This document shows, in pieces, positions 15,857 through 35,478 of a DNA stretch of 47,655 nt. The position numbers were made by a program, and so were the translations under genes. The DNA comes from Deltaproteobacteria bacterium (GTDB lineage: Bacteria; Desulfobacterota; Desulfobulbia; Desulfobulbales; SURF-16). The stretch covers positions 25,331 to 72,985 of the forward strand of contig JAOZOY010000003.1 in assembly GCA_029933005.1 (NCBI GenBank), read 5' to 3'. The notes beneath the pieces are model-generated. The model saw only the letters and a list, made by a program, of their open reading frames with translations. It made no database searches and was not told the origin of the DNA. Position 1 is the stretch's first letter, and every line of letters begins with the position of its first letter.

Positions 15857-17929
15857 TCAATCTTCATATGGCCAGGGGAGCATTCTCCCATCCAGGGCCG
15901 GATCTCCGGCCACGCCGCCGTTAACGCCTCGCCACAGTGCGGCCTGACGTCGGGAAAGAGTGACCAGCTTGATATTGCGGCTAGTGCTTTTTCCTGTCTC
16001 ATCGACCGCGGTCAGCCGCAGAACAGGTCCGGGATTGGGGCCGCTGTAAAATGTGGACGGCATGACAAAGGAGATCATCGAACCTTCGTCATTCAAGTTT
16101 TTTATCCTGACAGGCACACCGCTGACTTGTTGCCAGCTGAAATCAAGGGTATTGCGGTTCTCATCCCGTGTCGGGCCAGCATCAAGAATCACGGTCTCGC
16201 CAACGCTATAGCCTTTTGCCAGTTGTTTCAAGTTGATTTCCGGTGGCGGACTGCCAAGCTTAACCTTGATGTTTACCCTTTGCACCGGTGAACTTAATCC
16301 TCCTTGTTTAAAACGATATCTGATGACATCCTGACCGGAAAAGAAGTTGTCGGGAATATACTGGGACTGGCCATTACTCATTTTGATCAGGCGACCATGC
16401 AGGCCGGCTGTCTGTTGGTCTACATAGATCTTGTCATGAAAAGGAGTCCCGTTGATTGCCTGCCAGATTTCGGCCCAGTCTATAATGATTGTATCCGTGC
16501 TTGTAACCAGCAGAGCGACTTCTGCGGCGGCAATGGCCGGCGCGTCAGGTGTGAGGAGCACAGTCTCTGTTTCTGCCCCTTTCTTTTCTTCTGCCTTGGC
16601 GAGAAGAGCCAGGTTCGGCCCTGTAATAATAATGGTTGCCGGAGCGCTTTCCGACTTGCCGTCTCCTACCTTGAATTTAAGGTAATCCTCTCCGGGAAAG
16701 CTCTTATTCGGCAGATAGGTCAATTCGGGAGGATCACCGGATAAAATACCAAATTCAGGCTGGCGGATGATTTCGAAAACAAGTGGGTCATTATCTTCAT
16801 CTTCAGCCTTTAAAACAATGGCAATCTCTCCACCTTTTTCGTCCATCAGCAGGACATTATTTTCGGCAGCTGGAATTGAGTTTGTCTTAGCCGATTTTTC
16901 AATTTGAACAAAAAGGTTATCCTCTGACAAGGGAATCGGCGGAAGTTTTTCATCGTCTCCCAAGAAAAGAAACAGGGAAACGCTGACCAGCAGCAGGAGG
17001 CAAGCCGCCACAGCTGATAACAGTTTTCGGTTCATTGATGCCAGAAAAGCAGGCAGGACAAACCCGCTTCCTTCGTTCTTTTTTTCGCCCTCCTGTCCCT
17101 CAGACATGACTTGGGCAATTTCATCGTCGCCCATGCCGACCGTATTCTCGCCGCTGTCTTTTTTCTCTACGGCAGCCGATTTCGGTTCTTCAGCACCCGG
17201 ATCCTCTGCATCTTCCTCATCATCCGCCAGCATGGCGCTGAAATCCAGATCTTCCGATTGAAAGGGATCCTCGTTGTTGTCATCCTCGTCAAGATCGGAA
17301 AAAAAGTTATCCATATCATCCAGTTCGGAGACAAAATCTTCTTCTGTTGCGGATGCCTCATCCGCCATTTCCTGTTCCAGTTCGGAAGGCTTATCTGTCT
17401 CTTCGGCGGGAACCTCTTTGTCTCCGGCCTGCAATTCGTTGTTATCTTTCTGGTCAGTCCCACCATTTTTTTTCACATCTTCTTCCGGCGCTGCTGCATC
17501 AGTCTGGGCTGTATCCTCATCATTGCTGCCGAATAATTCATCGATGCCGGCCTGATCGAGCTCTTCAAAAACATCCGTGTCGCTACTTTTTTCTTCGGCT
17601 GGGGTCTCAACCTCCTGCTCTTTTTTCTGATCGCCTAAAAGGGCATCAATATTATCCTGGTCCAACTCATCTGAATCGTCCTCTTCCGCAGACTCTTCGA
17701 TATCCGTATCGTCAATCTTCCGCTCTTTTTCCTGATTGCCCAAAAGGGCATCAATCCCATCTTGATCAAGCTCGCTCTCATCTTCCTCCGGGGAGTCGCC
17801 ACTCTTTGCGTCCTGATCAAGTAGATCGTTAATATCTGACGGGTCAAGATCATCTGCATCAAATTCTTCATCCTCGATATCGTCCAGCCAGTCATCTATT
17901 TCAGAATTAATTAGTTTTTCGTCAGTCAT
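15857..17929 (-). CDS. Bitopic membrane protein: acidic IDALL-repeat cytoplasmic tail plus Ig/PKD-like periplasmic domains
   Basis: This 690-residue protein is of a kind I cannot name. Residues 1-300 are extremely acidic and contain repeated LDQxxIDxLLG motifs at residues 54-64, 89-99 and 124-134, spaced exactly 35 residues apart. More diverged versions are SEIDDWL (9-15) and DPSDINDLL (29-37). The motif resembles the FliM/FliY N-terminal CheY-binding peptide (SQDEIDALL). One transmembrane helix follows (about 303-323). The outer part has two cadherin/tandem-95-like beta domains (about 355-437, with EDNDPLVFEI, and about 455-557) and a PKD/REJ-like domain (about 562-657, with LDAGPTRDEN and FSWQQVSG). 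There is no clear signal peptide, so the N-terminus is likely cytoplasmic. It is the last gene of a leftward cluster with two FlgO-like proteins. The Shine-Dalgarno is weak. Confidence 0.8.
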   Translation of the reverse strand: MTDEKLINSEIDDWLDDIEDEEFDADDLDPSDINDLLDQDAKSGDSPEEDESELDQDGIDALLGNQEKERKIDDTDIEESAEEDDSDELDQDNIDALLGDQKKEQEVETPAEEKSSDTDVFEELDQAGIDELFGSNDEDTAQTDAAAPEEDVKKNGGTDQKDNNELQAGDKEVPAEETDKPSELEQEMADEASATEEDFVSELDDMDNFFSDLDEDDNNEDPFQSEDLDFSAMLADDEEDAEDPGAEEPKSAAVEKKDSGENTVGMGDDEIAQVMSEGQEGEKKNEGSGFVLPAFLASMNRKLLSAVAACLLLLVSVSLFLFLGDDEKLPPIPLSEDNLFVQIEKSAKTNSIPAAENNVLLMDEKGGEIAIVLKAEDEDNDPLVFEIIRQPEFGILSGDPPELTYLPNKSFPGEDYLKFKVGDGKSESAPATIIITGPNLALLAKAEEKKGAETETVLLTPDAPAIAAAEVALLVTSTDTIIIDWAEIWQAINGTPFHDKIYVDQQTAGLHGRLIKMSNGQSQYIPDNFFSGQDVIRYRFKQGGLSSPVQRVNIKVKLGSPPPEINLKQLAKGYSVGETVILDAGPTRDENRNTLDFSWQQVSGVPVRIKNLNDEGSMISFVMPSTFYSGPNPGPVLRLTAVDETGKSTSRNIKLVTLSRRQAALWRGVNGGVAGDPALDGRMLPWPYED

Positions 17930-17955
17930 GATTTTATACCAGATTGGTGGTTACA

Positions 17956-18492
17956 CTAATAACTTTCAGCATAGCTGTGGAGAGCCCGGTAAATTGGCTC
18001 CGACATTTCCACATTTGCGACATAGGCCCGTCTTTCTCCATACGCATTGCGGCCATGGATATGGATTCGTAAAAAACCATCCATCTCCTCCAGCATGCCT
18101 CCGACGATCTGTTCATGATTGTCTTCGGCGGGGACCTGAGAAACGGAACAGCAGTTAATCATGGCTGCCATCTGGTCGGCCAGGGTAATGCCGAGAATGG
18201 TCACTTTTTTTATCCGGTAATCACTGATGACGTTAAAAGGGCGCACTTTAATCACTGATGATCCGAAGAATTCATCAAACTGCCGGCTTGCGTCATCACA
18301 AATCATGGCAACCAGTTCGGACAGATTGGCATAGCTGTTTAAGCTGAACTGTTGGGGTACCTGCTCTTTTTCAAAAAGATCGGCACTTGATTCTTCCAAG
18401 GCCAGGGAGAGTGTGGGAAACCCAGGGCATAAAATTATCAAAATCAGCCAGCAAATCATACTGCCACGCTTCTGTTTTAATATGTTTTTCAT
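17956..18492 (-). CDS. Small exported protein of FlgO-like cluster
   Basis: This is a 178-residue protein with a signal peptide (hydrophobic about 13-30, cleavage near LSLA). The mature region has a predicted helix followed by SSVIKVRPFNVISDYRIKKVTILGITLADQMAAMIN. That order, a helix and strand followed by a helix rich in A/M, is reminiscent of the FlgO fold in its two neighbours, but the similarity is weak and I treat the family as unknown. The C-terminus ends SEPIYRALHSYAESY. AAGGAAAAC precedes the ATG. It lies between the IDALL-repeat membrane protein (26-base gap) and a FlgO-domain protein (24-base gap), so all are probably co-transcribed. Confidence 0.7.
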   Translation of the reverse strand: MKNILKQKRGSMICWLILIILCPGFPTLSLALEESSADLFEKEQVPQQFSLNSYANLSELVAMICDDASRQFDEFFGSSVIKVRPFNVISDYRIKKVTILGITLADQMAAMINCCSVSQVPAEDNHEQIVGGMLEEMDGFLRIHIHGRNAYGERRAYVANVEMSEPIYRALHSYAESY

Positions 18493-18516
18493 ATTTGTTT
18501 TCCTTAAAGATCCGAC

Positions 18517-19356
18517 TTAGTCGTTCATCCCTTTAACGGCAATGGTAAATGGCTGCTGGTCTATGGTATGGAAAAGGCCGAGAAGTTCACGGTTCAACGG
18601 CATGGTGTAACGCCAGGAGGTTTTAACCAGGCCATTTTGCAGATTGACCAGTCGCCCTTGGACGATCAGGGTTTTTCTGGTATTGGTAAAGGTTGAGACC
18701 ACGACATAATTCACTTGCGGAGAACTATTGGCAAGCTCGCCGATATTTCTGGACAAAATAAATTCACCGCTCTGGGCCATGATGTTGATTTCTTTTCCCA
18801 GCCTCAATTCCGTCACCTTCAACCCCCGGTCGGCAATATCGGTAAGGAGAAATTCCGCCATAATGCGACCGAACTCAGTTTCCCGCTTCAGATCGGACAG
18901 GGGAACAGCGCCGACAACAGCCACGGTGGAGGTTAAGTTTTTCTCTCCATCATCCTTGAGCTGATAAAAAATCTTGCCGGCAACATCACGCGATATATCC
19001 GAAAGTCTGCTTTCCATTCCCTGGGACTTGGAAGCCTCGGGCATATAATGATAGATTTGGTAACTTGAAGATCTGCAGGGTGGGGTTCTCTGAACCTGGG
19101 GTGCTTTTTCGTCCGCTTTTTCTTCAATTTCAAGATAGGCGCTCGGCAGCCGGGAAGAAGGAGGAGCGACAGATTTTTCTTTGACAGGAGGCTCAGCCGG
19201 CGGTTGTTGAACAACTGCGGCCTGTATCTGTGGTACCTGAACTTCAACCATGGGTTTTTGCGGCTCGGGTTGTGATGGGTTCTCCATCGACGCACAGGCA
19301 AAACAGGTCGAGGACAGCATTAAACAGCCCATGAGACAGATTATCTCCCTTTTCAT
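18517..19356 (-). CDS. FlgO-domain exported protein (1)
   Basis: This 279-residue protein starts at the ATG at 19356, which GGGAGAAAAAAG precedes. An in-frame upstream start at 19392 lacks a site. The N-terminal signal sequence ends near CFACAS. The cysteine there could be lipidated, but the lipobox is not canonical. A Pro/Gln/Glu-rich linker (about 28-95) leads to a C-terminal FlgO-type domain. Its marks are VAVVGAVPLSDLKRETEFGRIMAEFL, RGLKVTELRLGKEINI, GEFILSRNIGEL, and the final strand pattern VQGRLVNLQNGLV. FlgO in Vibrio is an outer-membrane protein needed for flagellar stability. Whether this homologue acts in motility is not shown here, since no flagellar genes are in the window. Confidence 0.8.
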   Translation of the reverse strand: MKREIICLMGCLMLSSTCFACASMENPSQPEPQKPMVEVQVPQIQAAVVQQPPAEPPVKEKSVAPPSSRLPSAYLEIEEKADEKAPQVQRTPPCRSSSYQIYHYMPEASKSQGMESRLSDISRDVAGKIFYQLKDDGEKNLTSTVAVVGAVPLSDLKRETEFGRIMAEFLLTDIADRGLKVTELRLGKEINIMAQSGEFILSRNIGELANSSPQVNYVVVSTFTNTRKTLIVQGRLVNLQNGLVKTSWRYTMPLNRELLGLFHTIDQQPFTIAVKGMND

Positions 19357-19515
19357 CTTTTTTCTCCCTGGAATATGGTGGTCACCTGTCAAAGCAGGAA
19401 TTGGACCTGGGTTTTAATTTTTTTATGGACAGCGCATGCGTATCTGTTGATTGTTCAGCAATCATTCAGAGTCTTCATCCTATTTGCCTAATTTGCTGCA
19501 ACTGTACGATTCTCA

Positions 19516-20196
19516 TCACAGTTCAAGTTTTTTTAGATACATAAATTCCTGCGGTTGTGTCCGCGCCGATGCTGAATCAGCCAGTAGCTGCCGGGTAAGC
19601 TGATTTTTTGGAAACAGGACTGTGGCGCTGGACAGCAGGGACGATGTTCTGTTGTCCAGAATTCTTGCATTAACAATAATATGATTTTTTCCGTCCAGAT
19701 AGGTCCCGGTAAGCATGGCGCCGGTGGTGATGTCTTCGGCAATTTCGTCCGGATTCCTGGAGAGGCCGTATTCGCCCCGTTTCTGCTGTACATGGATGGA
19801 GAGACTTTTCTGGATATCGTGAACGGTAAAAGAGCGTTGCTGGAATTCACTCATCAGCTGTCCGGCCAGATAACGGCCAAACGATGAGGTGCGGGAAAGC
19901 TTGTTGTTGTCGACAAAGGTGCAGACCACCAAACCATCGGCAAGAACACCAACCTGGGGGTCTCTGTCTTCAAGGTGAGTATAAAGACGGTCAGCCATAT
20001 CCCTGATTTGAAGGATCAGATCACAATCCTGATTTTGGCAGTTCTGCTTCGCTTGCTGCAAAAAAACAGGCCCTTGGAAAGGCGGTGGGCTGAACTGATC
20101 GGAATACGATTGAAAACCGAGGCCATTCACCGGCAGAAACAGAAATGATGGAAGCAAAAAAATCCACAGACAGTTCCGTAAGCTGAATTGATCCAT
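19516..20196 (-). CDS. FlgO-domain exported protein (2)
   Basis: This 226-residue protein has a signal peptide (hydrophobic about 10-27). The FlgO-type domain covers most of the mature chain. Marks include MADRLYTHL, VVCTFVDNNKLSRTSSFGRYLAGQLMSEF, RSFTVHDIQKSLSIHV, GEYGLSRNPDEIAEDI, GAMLTGTYLDGKNHIIVNARI and LLSSATVLF. AAGGAAAAAA precedes the ATG, as in the next two genes, suggesting a common operon. There are 159 bases between its stop and the start of the next FlgO-like gene. It has no lipobox, unlike Vibrio FlgO. It heads the four-gene leftward cluster. Upstream lies repeat copy E. Confidence 0.82.
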   Translation of the reverse strand: MDQFSLRNCLWIFLLPSFLFLPVNGLGFQSYSDQFSPPPFQGPVFLQQAKQNCQNQDCDLILQIRDMADRLYTHLEDRDPQVGVLADGLVVCTFVDNNKLSRTSSFGRYLAGQLMSEFQQRSFTVHDIQKSLSIHVQQKRGEYGLSRNPDEIAEDITTGAMLTGTYLDGKNHIIVNARILDNRTSSLLSSATVLFPKNQLTRQLLADSASARTQPQEFMYLKKLEL

Positions 20197-20257
20197 TTTT
20201 TTTCCTTAAAAAACATGGCGTCTGATGGAAAGCATCCGGACGACCGAATTAAAAAAA

Positions 20258-20428
20258 CGTAACTGTTCACCAAGGGCTATAATCCTTAGGGAAACTCCGT
20301 ACTGTAAGGGTTTACCAGTGACCCAGATGTGTGCAGATAAGTGTAGATTCAAGCAGGCTGGCCAACGATAGTAAGCCTGTGTGAGCCGGTCTGATCGTGC
20401 ACAGATGGGGTGCTGGTAAACTTTTACG
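20258..20428. repeat. Intergenic inverted-repeat element, copy E
   Basis: It begins CGTAACTGTTCACCAAGG (20258-20275) and ends GGTGCTGGTAAACTTTTACG (20409-20428). The left interior GGGCTATAATCCTTAGGGAAACTC...CTGTAAGGGTTTACCAGTG matches copy A (1523-1569) in the same order with scattered changes. It lies just upstream of the FlgO-like cluster and is likely to include or displace its promoter. Confidence 0.65.
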
Positions 20429-20816
20429 AAACAACAGGGTTTGTCTTTTTACATCGGTAAGATATGAAAATGTCTTAAATAGAAAATAACCGAGAAGGAG
20501 ATTTTTAAGGGATAAAGGGGTAGAGGGACAAAGGGACAGAGGGGAGGAGGCCACAGAGGAATTTATTTTATTTGTTAAAATATGGTCTCGTCAAAAGCTC
20601 CTGATTCATCAAAAATCTAGAGGGCTTTTTAGTTCTTTGATAGTAACGCTTTTCACTGTATGTTAGGCATCACACCAGTTCCGGTTGAGCCAAATAAAAT
20701 CGAGATATCATAACCAGGCCAATTCAGCCGACGCAAAAAACAGCGCGGCGTTTCTACCGTGAGAGGCGGTCTTACGGCTGTCGATAAATTTCACACCAAA
20801 CAAAGAAGACTATCAA
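20429..20816. other. Gap upstream of SpoIIAA-like gene, no gene found
   Basis: This stretch follows repeat copy E. It starts A/T-rich, then has a purine-rich patch (GGGATAAAGGGGTAGAGGGACAAAG at about 20509-20533), and then about 180 bases of mixed composition that look different from the flanking genome. It contains a GTTAGGC at about 20661, but no paired inverse core, so I do not call an attC site. No open frame with a ribosome-binding site is visible. Confidence 0.4.
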
Positions 20817-21179
20817 ATGATCGAGAAGATACCTGATCTACCAGGCAACGCACTCGGCTTCACAGCGAAAGGGACGGTAACCGCAAGTGACTACGAGTCC
20901 GTCATAATTCCAGCGGTGGAGGAACTGTTCTCTCACCAGAGTAAGATTCGTATCCTCTACCACCTCGGCGAAGACTTCATGGGATTCGAAGCCGCTGCCA
21001 TTTGGGATGATACAAAATTGGTCCTGAAGCATTTCACGGGCTGGGAGAGAATGGCAGTCGTATCGGATATCGAGTGGATACGGACAGCCATCAAATTTTT
21101 TGGACTTGGGATCCCAGGGCATGTTCGTGTATTTCATAACAGCGAACTCGCCGAAGCAACACAGTGGATCAGCGAGTAG
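20817..21179 (+). CDS. SpoIIAA-like (STAS-related) protein
   Basis: This is a 120-residue cytosolic protein of the SpoIIAA-like family, a STAS-fold group found widely outside sporulation. Typical segments are the N-terminal GNALGFTAKGTVTASDYESVI, RILYHLGEDFMGFEAAAIWDD, the FTGWERMAVVSDIEWIRTAIKFFG stretch and the end PGHVRVFHNSELAEATQWI. The family's function is unclear; lipid binding and regulatory roles have been suggested for relatives. AAGAAGAC before the ATG is a modest ribosome-binding site. By eye its codon use (ATA, CTA, CGG-poor) differs from its neighbours, which could reflect transfer. It stands alone between two non-coding gaps. Confidence 0.85.
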   Translation: MIEKIPDLPGNALGFTAKGTVTASDYESVIIPAVEELFSHQSKIRILYHLGEDFMGFEAAAIWDDTKLVLKHFTGWERMAVVSDIEWIRTAIKFFGLGIPGHVRVFHNSELAEATQWISE

Positions 21180-24281: not shown

Positions 24282-26156
24282 ATGCTGGGTTTACTACGCC
24301 GCAAGGCGCAATCGCCATATCTGCAGGCTACCGTGGTTATCATTATCCTGGTTTTTATATTTTGGGGTGTGGGAACAAACCAGGGCGGCGGCAGAAATGC
24401 CATTGCCACGGTGGATGACCAGTCAATAAGCTACATGGAATTTGATCAGGCCCTGGAGCGCACCATTGACCAATATAAGGATCAATTCGGTGGCAGTTTG
24501 CCTGCGGATTTTGTCGAGACTTTCGGTCTGAAAAGACAGGTGCTTGATCAGCTCATTCAGCAGGCCCTGATTCGTAAGGGTGCCATTGACATGGAGTTGT
24601 ATGTAAGTAATGAAGAGGTGCAGGACAATATTAAAACAATGGCTGTCTTTCTTAATAACGGTGTTTTTGATGTGGATCGATACAATGAGGTCCTGAGAAG
24701 CTCCCGTTTGACGCCAAAGAAATACGAAAAAAGTGTCAGGATTGATATTCTTGGCAGGAAAGCGGCAAGCCAGGTGGCCTCTTTCGGTCATGTCCTTGAA
24801 AGTGAACTGCTGAGCTGGTTCCGCTATGAAAATGAAGAACGTCAACTGGAATATGTTGTTTTCAAGGCCGAGGATTTTCAGGATCAGGTGGAAGTAAGCG
24901 AGGAAAAACTGGCAGCCTTTTTTAAAGAGCATCAGGACAATTACCGTACGCTGCCTCAGATCAAACTAAAATATATCTCTTTTCTTTTCAAGGATGAAAT
25001 CGATAAGCTTACCATCGACGAAGCGGAACTTGAAAGTTATTATCAGCAGCATCTTGAGCAATATTCTCAGCCGGAAACAAGACATGCCCGGCATATTCTT
25101 TTAAAGAGCGAAAATAATGATTCTGAAAAAGTAGAGCAAAAGATGCAGAAAATTCTGGCTCAGGCCAGAGGTGGTGAGGATTTTGCCAAATTGGCTGAAG
25201 AGTTTTCCGAAGACAGCACTGCGGACAAGGGCGGTGATCTTGGTTTTTTTGGCCGGGGACAGATGGTGAAAATTTTCGAAGATACGGCCTTTGGACTGAA
25301 GGAAGGTGAGATCAGCGATATTGTCCGCAGCCGTTTTGGTTTTCATATTATCAAACTTGAGGCAATCCGGCCAGCCACGACACAAACATTTGCCGAGGTC
25401 AGGGAGTCGATAGAAAACAAGCTGACACAGGAAAAGGCTAAGACCGAAACCTTTAAAACAGCCAACGCAACCTATGAAAAAATTATCCTTTCCGGCAGCC
25501 TGGAAAAATATGCTGAAAGCGGGGAGATTGCAATTGTTGAGACCGATTTTTTTAACAAAAATACTCCTCCGGCAGAAATCAGCGCTGACAGAAGCCTGAT
25601 CGATGTTGCTTTCAGCCTGAAAAAAGGCGAGCTGAGTTCCCTCATTGAAAGTGCCAAGGGATATTTTATTGTTTTTATTGCTGATTCTCAGGGCCCTGTT
25701 GTGCCGCCCATTGCTGATGTGAAAGAGGCGGTAACAGCTGATTTCCTTGCGGCAGGATCTCTGGATCTTGCCAGCCAGGCGGCGGAGAAATTGCTGACTG
25801 CAGCCAGGGAAGGAGATTTCCAAACAGTTTGTCAGGAGCAGGGAGTAAGCAGAATGGAATCAGGCTTTTTTTCCCGCACTAAACAGACAGACAAGGCTTT
25901 GCCGGTCCCGGTGATCAAAGAAGCTTTTCAGTTGACGGAAAAACAACCCTTGCCAAAAGAGGTTAAAGCGGAGGGAAACAGTTTTTATGTGTTTCGTTTA
26001 AAAGAGGTAAAAAATCCCTCGGACGATGAATTTGCCAAGGTCAGAGAGGAGCTGAAAAAGAGGATTGAAAGGGAAAACCAGATGAATATCATGTCGGCCT
26101 GGATGAAGCATCTGAAAAGCAGTGCGAAAATCAGCATTAATAAAAAATTTCTGTAG
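24282..26156 (+). CDS. ppiD: PpiD-like peptidylprolyl isomerase / chaperone
   Basis: This periplasmic folding factor is anchored in the inner membrane. The 624-residue protein starts MLGLLRRKAQSPYLQATVVIIILVF with one transmembrane segment (about 16-36), as in E. coli PpiD. A SurA-like N-terminal helical domain follows. A parvulin-type PPIase domain runs from about residue 268 (RHARHILLK) to 364, with DKGGDLGFFGRGQM and FGFHIIKLE. The remaining C-terminal third contains a second, degenerate parvulin-like repeat (SLKKGELSSLIESAKGYFIV). AGGAG precedes the ATG. The murein hydrolase gene downstream follows in the same direction after 72 bases. Confidence 0.9.
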   Translation: MLGLLRRKAQSPYLQATVVIIILVFIFWGVGTNQGGGRNAIATVDDQSISYMEFDQALERTIDQYKDQFGGSLPADFVETFGLKRQVLDQLIQQALIRKGAIDMELYVSNEEVQDNIKTMAVFLNNGVFDVDRYNEVLRSSRLTPKKYEKSVRIDILGRKAASQVASFGHVLESELLSWFRYENEERQLEYVVFKAEDFQDQVEVSEEKLAAFFKEHQDNYRTLPQIKLKYISFLFKDEIDKLTIDEAELESYYQQHLEQYSQPETRHARHILLKSENNDSEKVEQKMQKILAQARGGEDFAKLAEEFSEDSTADKGGDLGFFGRGQMVKIFEDTAFGLKEGEISDIVRSRFGFHIIKLEAIRPATTQTFAEVRESIENKLTQEKAKTETFKTANATYEKIILSGSLEKYAESGEIAIVETDFFNKNTPPAEISADRSLIDVAFSLKKGELSSLIESAKGYFIVFIADSQGPVVPPIADVKEAVTADFLAAGSLDLASQAAEKLLTAAREGDFQTVCQEQGVSRMESGFFSRTKQTDKALPVPVIKEAFQLTEKQPLPKEVKAEGNSFYVFRLKEVKNPSDDEFAKVREELKKRIERENQMNIMSAWMKHLKSSAKISINKKFL

Positions 26157-32937: not shown

Positions 32938-33237
32938 TCAAGAATTCAATACAATATCAATTTTTTCCCGGGCCTCCGCAAGGCTGATACCGGAAAGCAG
33001 AATCCGTTTTTTTCGGCTCTGCAGGCCGGTCTTAATGATGATTCCTTTTTTGGGGATTGAGAAAAAGTCAGCCAGAAATTTGATAACGGCCTTGTTGGCT
33101 TTGCCGTCAGCCGGCGGGGCAGTAACAGCCAGTTTCAAATTTTCACCATGGAGGCCGACAATCCTATTTTTTGAGGCCCTGGGTTGGATATGGAGAGCCA
33201 GGGAAAGAGAGCCCTTTTCTTCCCTGAGAAAGGTCAT
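32938..33237 (-). CDS. DUF167/YggU family protein
   Basis: This is a 99-residue protein of the UPF0235 (YggU) family. The family hallmark PRASKNRIVGLHGENLKLAVTAPPADGKANKAVIKFLADFF is clear, followed by IIKTGLQSRKKRILLSG. Function is unknown. Its ATG overlaps the divIVA stop by four bases (ATGA), so translation is likely coupled. YggU commonly sits next to YggT and DivIVA, as here. Confidence 0.93.
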   Translation of the reverse strand: MTFLREEKGSLSLALHIQPRASKNRIVGLHGENLKLAVTAPPADGKANKAVIKFLADFFSIPKKGIIIKTGLQSRKKRILLSGISLAEAREKIDIVLNS

Positions 33238-34052
33238 TTCTTCTCGTCGTTATCTTTTTCGCCGTCACTTTCTTCGTCATCATCAACAACAACGGCAGGC
33301 TCATGTTCCTGATCCAGGGGGTCCGCCAGGCTGAAAAGCATGTCGCCATCAAGATCAGGCATGGTTGGCTGGTCCTTGTTGTTTTCATCCTGATCATCAG
33401 AAGGCGAATCAAAAAGCGAGGTGTTGAGGTTCACCACGTCTTCAACAGGCTCCTCCTGCTCTTCCTGATCATGATCGGCTGGATCATCCAGGTCTGGAAG
33501 CTCGATTTTCCGGTAAAGATCATCGAGGTCATCATCTGTCTCTGTTCTGGCTTTTTCGGTTTCACTCTCCTCTTCTTTGACCTGGGATTGAAAAGTATAC
33601 GGATTGGCGTCCTCTTTGCCATCGATAGCGTCAAGTTGGAACTGCAGAAACTGGCGGAGTTCACCCAGAATATCGTCTTTTTTCCCCTGGAGCCGCTCAA
33701 TCTCTTCCTCGAGGGAGGCGACCTTCTCCTCGGCTTCAGTCTGGATTCGTTCTGCTTCCTTGCGACTTGAATCGAGAAGATCATCGGCTTCCTGTTTGCT
33801 TTTATCCTGCATTTCATCGGCAATTTTCTGGGCGGAGAGGAAGGCATTCTGGAAGGTTTTTTCCTGGTTTTTGAACTGGGTCATCTCCTCCTCGAACGTA
33901 TCAATTCTCTCCTGAAGCTTTTTATTGTCCGTGGAGAGCAGCAGGTAGTGTTCGGCAACCTTTTCCAGAAAAGCATCGACTTCATCAACATCAAAACCAC
34001 GAAATCGGGCATGAAATTGCTGAGTCTGTATTTCTTCAGCCGTTAATGTCAT
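33234..34052 (-). CDS. divIVA: DivIVA domain-containing protein
   Basis: This coiled-coil scaffold recognises membrane curvature at poles and septa. The start is the ATG at 34052, with GGAGG eight bases upstream. An upstream in-frame start at 34106 has no site and lies in the repeat region. The N-terminus TLTAEEIQTQQFHARFRGFDVDEVDAFLEKVAEHY is the DivIVA lipid-binding motif. A coiled coil extends to about residue 145. The tail (about 150-272) is very acidic and low complexity, ending in repeated Asp/Glu runs. At 272 residues it is longer than B. subtilis DivIVA because of this tail. The neighbours YggT and YggU match the conserved cell-division cluster. Confidence 0.9.
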   Translation of the reverse strand: MTLTAEEIQTQQFHARFRGFDVDEVDAFLEKVAEHYLLLSTDNKKLQERIDTFEEEMTQFKNQEKTFQNAFLSAQKIADEMQDKSKQEADDLLDSSRKEAERIQTEAEEKVASLEEEIERLQGKKDDILGELRQFLQFQLDAIDGKEDANPYTFQSQVKEEESETEKARTETDDDLDDLYRKIELPDLDDPADHDQEEQEEPVEDVVNLNTSLFDSPSDDQDENNKDQPTMPDLDGDMLFSLADPLDQEHEPAVVVDDDEESDGEKDNDEKK

Positions 34053-34082
34053 TGTCAGCCTCCGTTTATTGTTTGTTTTATT

Positions 34083-34244
34083 GTAACTATTCAGGTGAGC
34101 CACCAAATTGACCTAACCACCGTTCCGTAACTGTTCAGGAGTGCTCCATATCGGAGTCTGCGCTTACCTGGGCCTTTGAAGCATACTTGTGCTATTCGAG
34201 AAGGCCAGGTATGGGACAAGATGGGGTACTCCTGAATAGTTACG
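34083..34244. repeat. Intergenic inverted-repeat element, copy F
   Basis: A terminus GTAACTATTCAGG (34083-34095) is followed by a full element from CGTAACTGTTCAGGAGTGCTCC (34126-34147) to GGGGTACTCCTGAATAGTTACG (34223-34244). Its interior contains the inverse of GGTAAGCG...AGACTCCG. The central part, read on the minus strand, matches copy D almost base for base from TACCTGGCCTTCTCGAATAGC onward. It separates divIVA from yggT. Confidence 0.75.
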
Positions 34245-34584: not shown

Positions 34585-35331
34585 TTATATTGAGAGGATC
34601 TGGGAACTGATTTGCATGACAGCCCGGCTGGCTCTGGAGTCGGGCGAGATTTCCACGAACGGTTTCTGGCTTCTGATTGCCCTGACGACAGCGCTGTCCT
34701 GGGGAATGGCACCAAGATAGTCAGGCGAAATCTGCAGAAATTTTTTCAGCACAATTTTCATGTTGTTAAAAATCTGCCTTCCTTCCTTTTTGCTTTTGAC
34801 ATTGTTAATCAGCAGATGAAACCGGTTTTTGCCGAAACGGTGAAAAAGAACTTTGATCAGGGCGTAGGCGTCGGTCATGGCAGTCGGATCAGGTGACAGG
34901 ATGATAATATTGTCATCCGCCCAGTTGTTAAACCAGAGAACCGCGTCGCCGATTCCGGCGGCCGAGTCCACCAGGACGTAGTCAAATTTGTCAATGATAT
35001 TCTCCAGCGCATTGATCAGAAAGGCCTGTTCCTCGTATGAGATGTTGGCCATTTCCGGTACACCGGAGCTTGCCGGCAGAACCTTGAAGCCCGGCTCGAT
35101 TTCCACCAGGATGGAGGACAAAGGTCTTTCCTCATCAATTGTTTCCTGGAGAGTATGATGCATATTCAGCCCGAGGAGTACATCAACATTGGCCAACCCC
35201 AGATCGCCGTCAACCAGAAGAACTTTTTGTTTCTGGCGGGCGAGGGAACAGGCTATGTTGACGGAAAAAGAGGTCTTGCCCACTCCGCCCTTGCCGCTGC
35301 TGACACAGATTATTTTTGGAGAATTGGTCAT
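34585..35331 (-). CDS. MinD/FlhG-type P-loop ATPase
   Basis: This is a cytosolic, membrane-associating ParA-superfamily ATPase. It has 248 residues when started at the ATG at 35331 (MTNSPKIICVSSGKGG). A GTG at 35418 would add 29 residues that look non-conserved. The deviant Walker A GKGGVGKTS lies at about 13-21. LLVDGDLGLANVDVLLGL and FDYVLVDSAAGIGDAV are typical of the FlhG/YlxH branch rather than MinD. A C-terminal amphipathic helix is suggested by the final residues AVMQISSQILSI. FlhG controls flagellar number, yet flhF and flagellar genes are absent here. The gene sits upstream of yggT in a run of division genes. Confidence 0.85.
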   Translation of the reverse strand: MTNSPKIICVSSGKGGVGKTSFSVNIACSLARQKQKVLLVDGDLGLANVDVLLGLNMHHTLQETIDEERPLSSILVEIEPGFKVLPASSGVPEMANISYEEQAFLINALENIIDKFDYVLVDSAAGIGDAVLWFNNWADDNIIILSPDPTAMTDAYALIKVLFHRFGKNRFHLLINNVKSKKEGRQIFNNMKIVLKKFLQISPDYLGAIPQDSAVVRAIRSQKPFVEISPDSRASRAVMQISSQILSI

Positions 35332-35478
35332 ATTTTTAAGTTCTCGTTTCGTCTGTTCATGTCGATAGACCGTAGGGGAAATGAGCTTGTTACACCAGAG
35401 AGCAATGCAACGAAACACACGCAGACTTCGAAAGCTGACAGCCTTTAGCTTACAGTTTAAATAATCTGAATTTTTCCT

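Follow-up and report, generated by a model that had tools for sequence, protein, structure and literature searches.

Four genes lying in a row on the minus strand (15857–20196) of a 47,655-nucleotide stretch of a Desulfobulbales genome (the window; positions 25,331 to 72,985 of contig JAOZOY010000003.1, assembly GCA_029933005.1) can be assigned with good support to the flagellar system. In reading order they are referred to here as FLGO1, FLGO2, SML and BIG (Table 1). Three separate lines of evidence carry this assignment: a promoter box upstream of FLGO1 that shares its half-sites with flagellin genes, the co-occurrence of BIG with one of two types of FliM, and a motif repeated in the cytoplasmic part of BIG that resembles the N-terminus of FliM (FliM-N). 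The cluster is probably a late flagellar accessory operon, encoding an outer-membrane FlgO-type ring and an inner-membrane tether with FliM-N-like sites. The first-pass annotation, which was made from the sequence of the window, had proposed a four-gene trans-envelope module that could connect cytoplasmic signalling to an outer-membrane or surface structure; such a module exists and is conserved, while the connection would be a matter for the model discussed below. Its statement that there is no flagellar gene here is correct for the window proteins that were scanned but not for the 3.07-Mb draft genome (G000; window on contig C149), in which fliM and fliN were identified by Pfam, clustered with genes for FlhA/FlhB-type export proteins. 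Inspection of this flagellar cluster by eye also gave candidates for FlhF, FlhG (MinD-like), FliA and CheY. The lack of nearby flagellar genes thus does not make the module non-flagellar, since the genome is flagellated, the module tracks one FliM type and a sigma-28-type box precedes it.

The gene cluster and its promoter box are conserved

Relatives of BIG were searched for in 146 genomes of the order Desulfobulbales and were found in many of its families, and 40 loci were retrieved for comparison of gene order. FLGO1–FLGO2–SML–BIG were encoded on one strand in intact order at 38 of these loci, and the recurrence in relatives that had been set beforehand as the refutation test of the module was therefore observed; of the two exceptions, one had a contig end inside the cluster and the other no recognisable SML. 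Median gaps between the four genes were 53, 14 and 33 bp, as expected for an operon. In a sample of 395 genomes of the phylum, no full-length BIG or SML was found outside the Desulfobulbales, and the matches to BIG from beyond the order covered stretches of its immunoglobulin (Ig)-like part or its repeat region alone. In the window, all four leftward open reading frames (ORFs) are present as described by the first-pass annotation, and so are the ribosome-binding sites it gave for three of them (AAGGA for FLGO1 and SML, GGGAG for FLGO2); no obvious site was seen upstream of the start of BIG. The longest FLGO2 ORF (18517–19392, 291 aa) begins with TTG, but the start is most likely the ATG at 19356, to judge from the GGGAG site and the neighbouring ATG.

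On the coding strand upstream of FLGO1, the pattern T[ACT]AAG-N16-CCGAT was present at 33 of 37 loci (shuffle mean 0.04), with just four matches elsewhere in the same loci (1.2 Mb of strand). When spacings of 10–22 bp were scanned, N16 alone was enriched; the spacer sequence showed no conservation between distant loci, and a strict sigma-28 scan with N14–N15 spacing gave no matches. As an independent calibration, flagellin genes with the same half-sites upstream, located ~180–300 bp from the start codon, were found in 9 of 14 genomes (eight N15, one N16). A candidate sigma-54 promoter upstream of FLGO1 was rejected, as it scored no better than shuffles (7.38 vs 7.54). Boxes of the sigma-54 type were seen near fliM in several genomes, which is consistent with a sigma-54/sigma-28 hierarchy. 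The distance between box and FLGO1 is 282 bp in the window and 106 bp in a genus-mate (L046), with ~175 bp of extra DNA within 20197–20452. Among loci L143–L167, TTHAAG-N16-CCGAT also precedes a flagellar rod/hook-like ORF by 52 bp in G071 (L144), and in the window's own genome (L163) it overlaps the start of a flgJ-like ORF, with flgN- and flgK-like ORFs further downstream.

BIG follows one type of FliM

The FliM proteins of the 146 genomes were split by two score classes, which gave 67 genomes with type-1 FliM, 41 with type-2 FliM (families f3, f11 and f12) and 38 in which FliM was undetected. BIG was present in 64 of the 67 type-1 genomes, in none of the 41 type-2 genomes and in five of the 38 others (BIG against type-1 FliM, type-2 genomes excluded: Fisher P = 1e-18, genomes counted irrespective of ancestry). 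Co-occurrence with flagellar genes, a check suggested in the first-pass annotation, hence takes the form of an association with one FliM type. In the same direction, both FliM and BIG were absent from G106 (f1) and several f15 genomes, which belong to otherwise type-1 families. The number of FlgO copies also varied with the motor: typically four in genomes with type-1 FliM, one in those with type-2 FliM and mostly none in those without FliM. Type-2 FliM is divergent (L138, L139 and L140) and has a degenerate EIDALL motif, reading EIAELL or QIEELL in these genomes without BIG; its sequence suggests two flagellar motor lineages in the order.

The cytoplasmic repeats of BIG resemble the FliM N-terminus

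CheY-docking-like IDALL repeats had been reported in the acidic cytoplasmic region of BIG, and they proved to be real and to match the N-terminus of FliM from the same genome. Counting the pattern Q..[IVLM]D.[LIMF][LFIM] in 39 full-length BIG orthologues gave 178 matches before the transmembrane helix, compared with 0.3 expected from shuffling, and none after it. Orthologues carried 1–8 repeats (median 4), with at least one in all 39 and at least two in 37. The consensus is E-L-D-Q-x-[ND]-I-D-A-L-[LF]-G, i.e. (E)LDQxxIDALLG, in which Q and D are required by the search pattern; SELDQDGIDALLGN is an example of a repeat peptide. The 178 repeats showed a bias toward L at position −2 (71%), which is free in the pattern, I at +3 (89%) and A at +5 (51%). 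FliM of the same genome begins MEQILSQDEVDALLKG, and its motif ILSQDEVDALLKG is close to the repeat consensus; the N-terminal motif stretch is unchanged in four other type-1 FliM proteins, and in a fifth it differs by an inserted Ala alone. The docking core of FliM-N is of the [LI]SQxE[IV]DALL type. In other bacteria, EIDALL of FliM is the binding site of phosphorylated CheY (CheY-P) (PMC9126983; PMC6946799), and in polar flagellates the FliM N-terminus is also bound by FlhG (PMC12826062). A sequence search of the PDB with the BIG repeat region gave no match.

Similar repeats were seen in proteins from other families of the phylum. L132:4300-7173 and L133:5923-9006 encode a DUF3999 periplasmic domain, a transmembrane helix and then a cytoplasmic tail in which LNQDDLDALL-type repeats are numerous, a motif similar to that of BIG in the opposite topology. 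In another family, Ala/Pro-rich proteins that seem to be soluble carry GQDDLDALL-type repeats (L130:5828-7120, L131:6615-7832 and L134:5940-7190). The L130 gene adjoins valS-like and enolase-like genes, and no flagellar genes were recognised beside the repeat genes at the two loci examined. A Pfam match to Pup in one of these outside proteins overlaps the repeats, is probably spurious and was discarded.

Architecture of the encoded proteins

The first-pass annotation described BIG as a bitopic protein of 690 residues with Ig/PKD-like periplasmic domains, and this was borne out by the AF2 model (helix 301–322, three confident beta domains) and by Pfam, which placed a Big_9 domain at residues 350–436 (5e-15) along with cadherin-type and weak PKD-like matches. 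The N-terminal 300 residues are acidic and were modelled as disordered with low confidence. A similar layout (acidic N-terminus, transmembrane helix, periplasmic domain) is found in P0001, a 316-aa acidic bitopic protein without a Pfam match that is encoded in the flagellar cluster of the same genome next to a CheY-like gene (L086:782-1732).

Both predicted FlgO-domain exported proteins were recovered by PF17680 (FlgO) over nearly the whole domain (FLGO1, 102.6 bits; FLGO2, 89.9 bits; cut-off 22.6 bits), so that the second refutation test set beforehand, a FlgO search without a hit, also left the module standing. Searched against the PDB, the FLGO1 orthologue profile matched the solved 'FlgO domain-containing protein' chains 9yfg/9yds (2e-21), and the FLGO2 profile matched 9yfg (3e-6). 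FLGO2 has a Cys close to the end of its signal sequence, and a lipobox-like pattern was present, by a loose rule, in 7 of 40 FLGO1 and 17 of 40 FLGO2 orthologues. SML had been described as a small exported protein with weak FlgO-like features; its export stands, but a FlgO-like nature has little support and SML was not accepted as a FlgO member, since no Pfam family was matched and profile–profile comparison (hhalign) gave probabilities of just 44% against FLGO1 and 12% against FLGO2. SML had no NCBIfam match either, and its sequence found nothing meaningful in the PDB. The orthologue alignment (A1) contains 20 invariant columns, and the AF2 model (pLDDT 79.7) is an alpha/beta domain whose best PDB fold is the C-terminal domain of LpoB (E = 0.009, TM-score 0.38/0.47).

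Table 1. Features of the four-gene cluster (window coordinates).
Feature	Coordinates	Strand	Evidence and remarks
FLGO1, exported FlgO-domain protein, 226 aa	19516..20196	−	PF17680 1.9e-29; match to solved FlgO-domain chains
FLGO2, 279-aa FlgO-domain protein (start at ATG 19356)	18517..19356	−	PF17680 1.6e-25; 9yfg match
SML, exported protein of 178 aa with an alpha/beta fold	17956..18492	−	Alignment, AF2 model, LpoB-type fold match
BIG, bitopic, 690 aa	15857..17929	−	Acidic disordered cytoplasmic tail, transmembrane helix, three Ig/cadherin/PKD-like periplasmic domains
Sigma-28-type box TTAAG-N16-CCGAT	20453..20478	−	282 bp upstream of FLGO1 ATG
BIG repeat 1, DLDPSDINDLL, degenerate	17819..17851	−	Sole cytoplasmic segment modelled as helix, residues 31–37
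BIG repeat 2, ELDQDGIDALLG, FliM-N-like	17738..17773	−	Sequence
BIG repeat 3, ELDQDNIDALLG	17633..17668	−	Sequence
BIG repeat 4, ELDQAGIDELFG	17528..17563	−	Sequence
BIG transmembrane helix, residues 301–323	16961..17029	−	Hydropathy peak 2.7; AF2 helix 301–322
BIG periplasmic part, residues 350–655, three beta-sandwich domains, first = Big_9	15965..16882	−	pLDDT mostly above 90

Genomic surroundings and other FlgO loci

Genes frequently flanking the cluster across loci were rpe, an M16 peptidase gene and lgt; in the window the neighbours are these three, polA and a SurA-like gene. A SpoIIAA-like protein (20817–21179) is encoded divergently from FLGO1, upstream of polA. Further away, a DivIVA-domain protein lies near a ParA/MinD-type ATPase (33234–34106 and 34585–35418), both possible polarity factors. 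A second FlgO locus of the same genome (L005:8285-10783, contig C95), between the dnaJ/galT and purA regions, encodes a FlgO protein, a small lipoprotein-like protein, another FlgO protein and an LpoB-like protein; a related arrangement was seen beside purA, dnaJ and galT in G005, a complete single-contig genome that also has the four-gene module, and in part in G071. FlgO matches were also located ~11–16 kb from fliM in G065, G071, G005 and G027. Pfam detected no FlgP or FlgT in the four-gene operon or the second FlgO locus; a genome-wide search for them was not made.

Discussion

We propose, as the probable reading, that FLGO1, FLGO2, SML and BIG constitute a late-class (sigma-28/FliA) operon accessory to one flagellar motor type in the order. 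The exported FLGO1 and FLGO2, probably together with SML, would build or attach to a ring that encircles the basal body near the outer membrane, as FlgO does in the Vibrio H-ring, while BIG would be their inner-membrane partner, its three Ig-like domains extending into the periplasm and its disordered acidic tail offering several FliM-N docking motifs beside the C-ring. The likeliest job of this tail would be the capture of CheY-P, by which it would serve the switch locally as a multivalent antenna or as a buffer, with FlhG as the alternative ligand; the apparently late expression puts CheY-P ahead of FlhG. The gene content, the conservation, the promoter box, the co-occurrence with one FliM type and the likeness of the repeats to FliM-N are observed; that a ring forms, that BIG touches the FlgO proteins and which ligand it binds are what we infer from these data. 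That BIG is a membrane-anchored multivalent FliM-N mimic, gathering CheY-P (or FlhG) at the switch and tied through its Ig-like domains to the FlgO ring, is accordingly offered as a tentative model, to which we give somewhat less than even credence.

Several observations weigh against the flagellar interpretation or its details. The FLGO1 box has N16 spacing, the flagellin boxes mostly N15, and the flagellin gene of the window's own genome (L179) lacks the box at this stringency. Genome-wide, the N16 pattern exceeded the control in G005 and G071, but in the window genome it occurred nine times against eight for the reversed-pattern control, so that the box alone does not define a regulon there. 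The type-1 genomes G007, G011 and G017 lack BIG, which is therefore not essential for the type-1 motor, and five genomes have BIG without a detected FliM (four are 73–86% complete, G047 93%). The two FliM types largely follow families, which leaves few independent events. As to the motif, BIG has D before the Q where FliM has S, and unrelated proteins of Desulfobacterota, encoded away from flagellar genes, have IDALL-like repeats too.

The last of these points, together with the disordered, low-confidence model of the repeat region and the wide variation in repeat number, would fit an operon that is flagellar but in which the BIG repeats are a flexible charged spacer, the IDALL-like sequence reflecting low-complexity, helix-forming repeats without docking. 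This is unlikely in our judgement, as positions other than the required Q and D are strongly biased toward FliM-N residues and as the genomes in which the FliM motif is degenerate lack BIG. It is also rather unlikely that the repeats bind FlhG, the number-control ATPase, and not CheY-P. BIG would then be a membrane-bound sink or landmark fixed to the finished motor by the FlgO proteins, and the operon would set flagellar place and number. HubP is a large bitopic protein with an acidic repetitive cytoplasmic part, and BIG resembles the HubP/FimV/TspA polar landmark proteins in all these features. The candidates for FlhF and MinD-like FlhG in the flagellar cluster, and the binding of FliM-N by FlhG in polar flagellates, also favour such a HubP/FimV-like job in inverted topology. 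However, the order of BIG is opposite (cytoplasmic N-terminus, periplasmic C-terminus), it carries Ig-like domains, no LysM or FimV-type C-terminal domain was found in it by the Pfam scan, and late sigma-28-type expression sits better with a completed motor than with control of assembly.

A module that serves the envelope in some other way (as part of a type IV pilus or an adhesin, or in envelope maintenance), with an incidental likeness to FlgO and IDALL, would agree with the location of the cluster among non-flagellar neighbours and with the resemblance of SML, and of a protein encoded next to FlgO at the second locus, to the peptidoglycan synthase activator LpoB. The flagellin-type promoter box, the co-occurrence with one FliM type and the variation of FlgO copy number with motor type make this very improbable, and it was set aside.

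Accessory rings of the flagellar motor have been described in Vibrio, Campylobacter and a small number of other bacteria, and in the literature searched we found no account of one in Desulfobulbales. The Vibrio H-ring is made of FlgO, FlgP and FlgT (PMC7990780; PMC6375700). The operon shares with it exported FlgO-domain proteins, matched by solved FlgO chains, and a flagellar association through promoter box and co-occurrence; it differs in combining two FlgO paralogues with an LpoB-like protein and an inner-membrane protein, FlgP and FlgT not being found within it. SML's likeness to the LpoB/TolB-N type of alpha-beta domain is limited to the structural match, in that its sequence does not match LpoB in Pfam. 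PflA/PflB and the basal disk of Campylobacter jejuni serve as a working analogy, as a single-transmembrane inner-membrane component accompanies outer-membrane disk components (PMC7990780); PflA/PflB, however, are TPR proteins, and BIG is Ig-like. Compared with FliM itself, whose CheY-P docking motif the BIG consensus approaches, BIG repeats the motif 1–8 times, is membrane-anchored and lacks FliM/SpoA domains. Neither FlgO rings nor the FliM motif is new, but the BIG component is probably undescribed: in the literature searched, which left subscription journals mostly outside, we found no protein that is anchored in the membrane, bears FliM-N-like motifs in tandem and is encoded together with FlgO proteins.

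If BIG indeed offers many FliM-N sites at the motor, this would be a new way to tune switch sensitivity, in which CheY-P is caught by a protein that does not rotate and is anchored in the envelope. Within one order, BIG goes with just one of the two FliM types, and these differ in the very motif concerned, which makes a sharp test possible; the variation from one to eight repeats across species provides a natural dose series.

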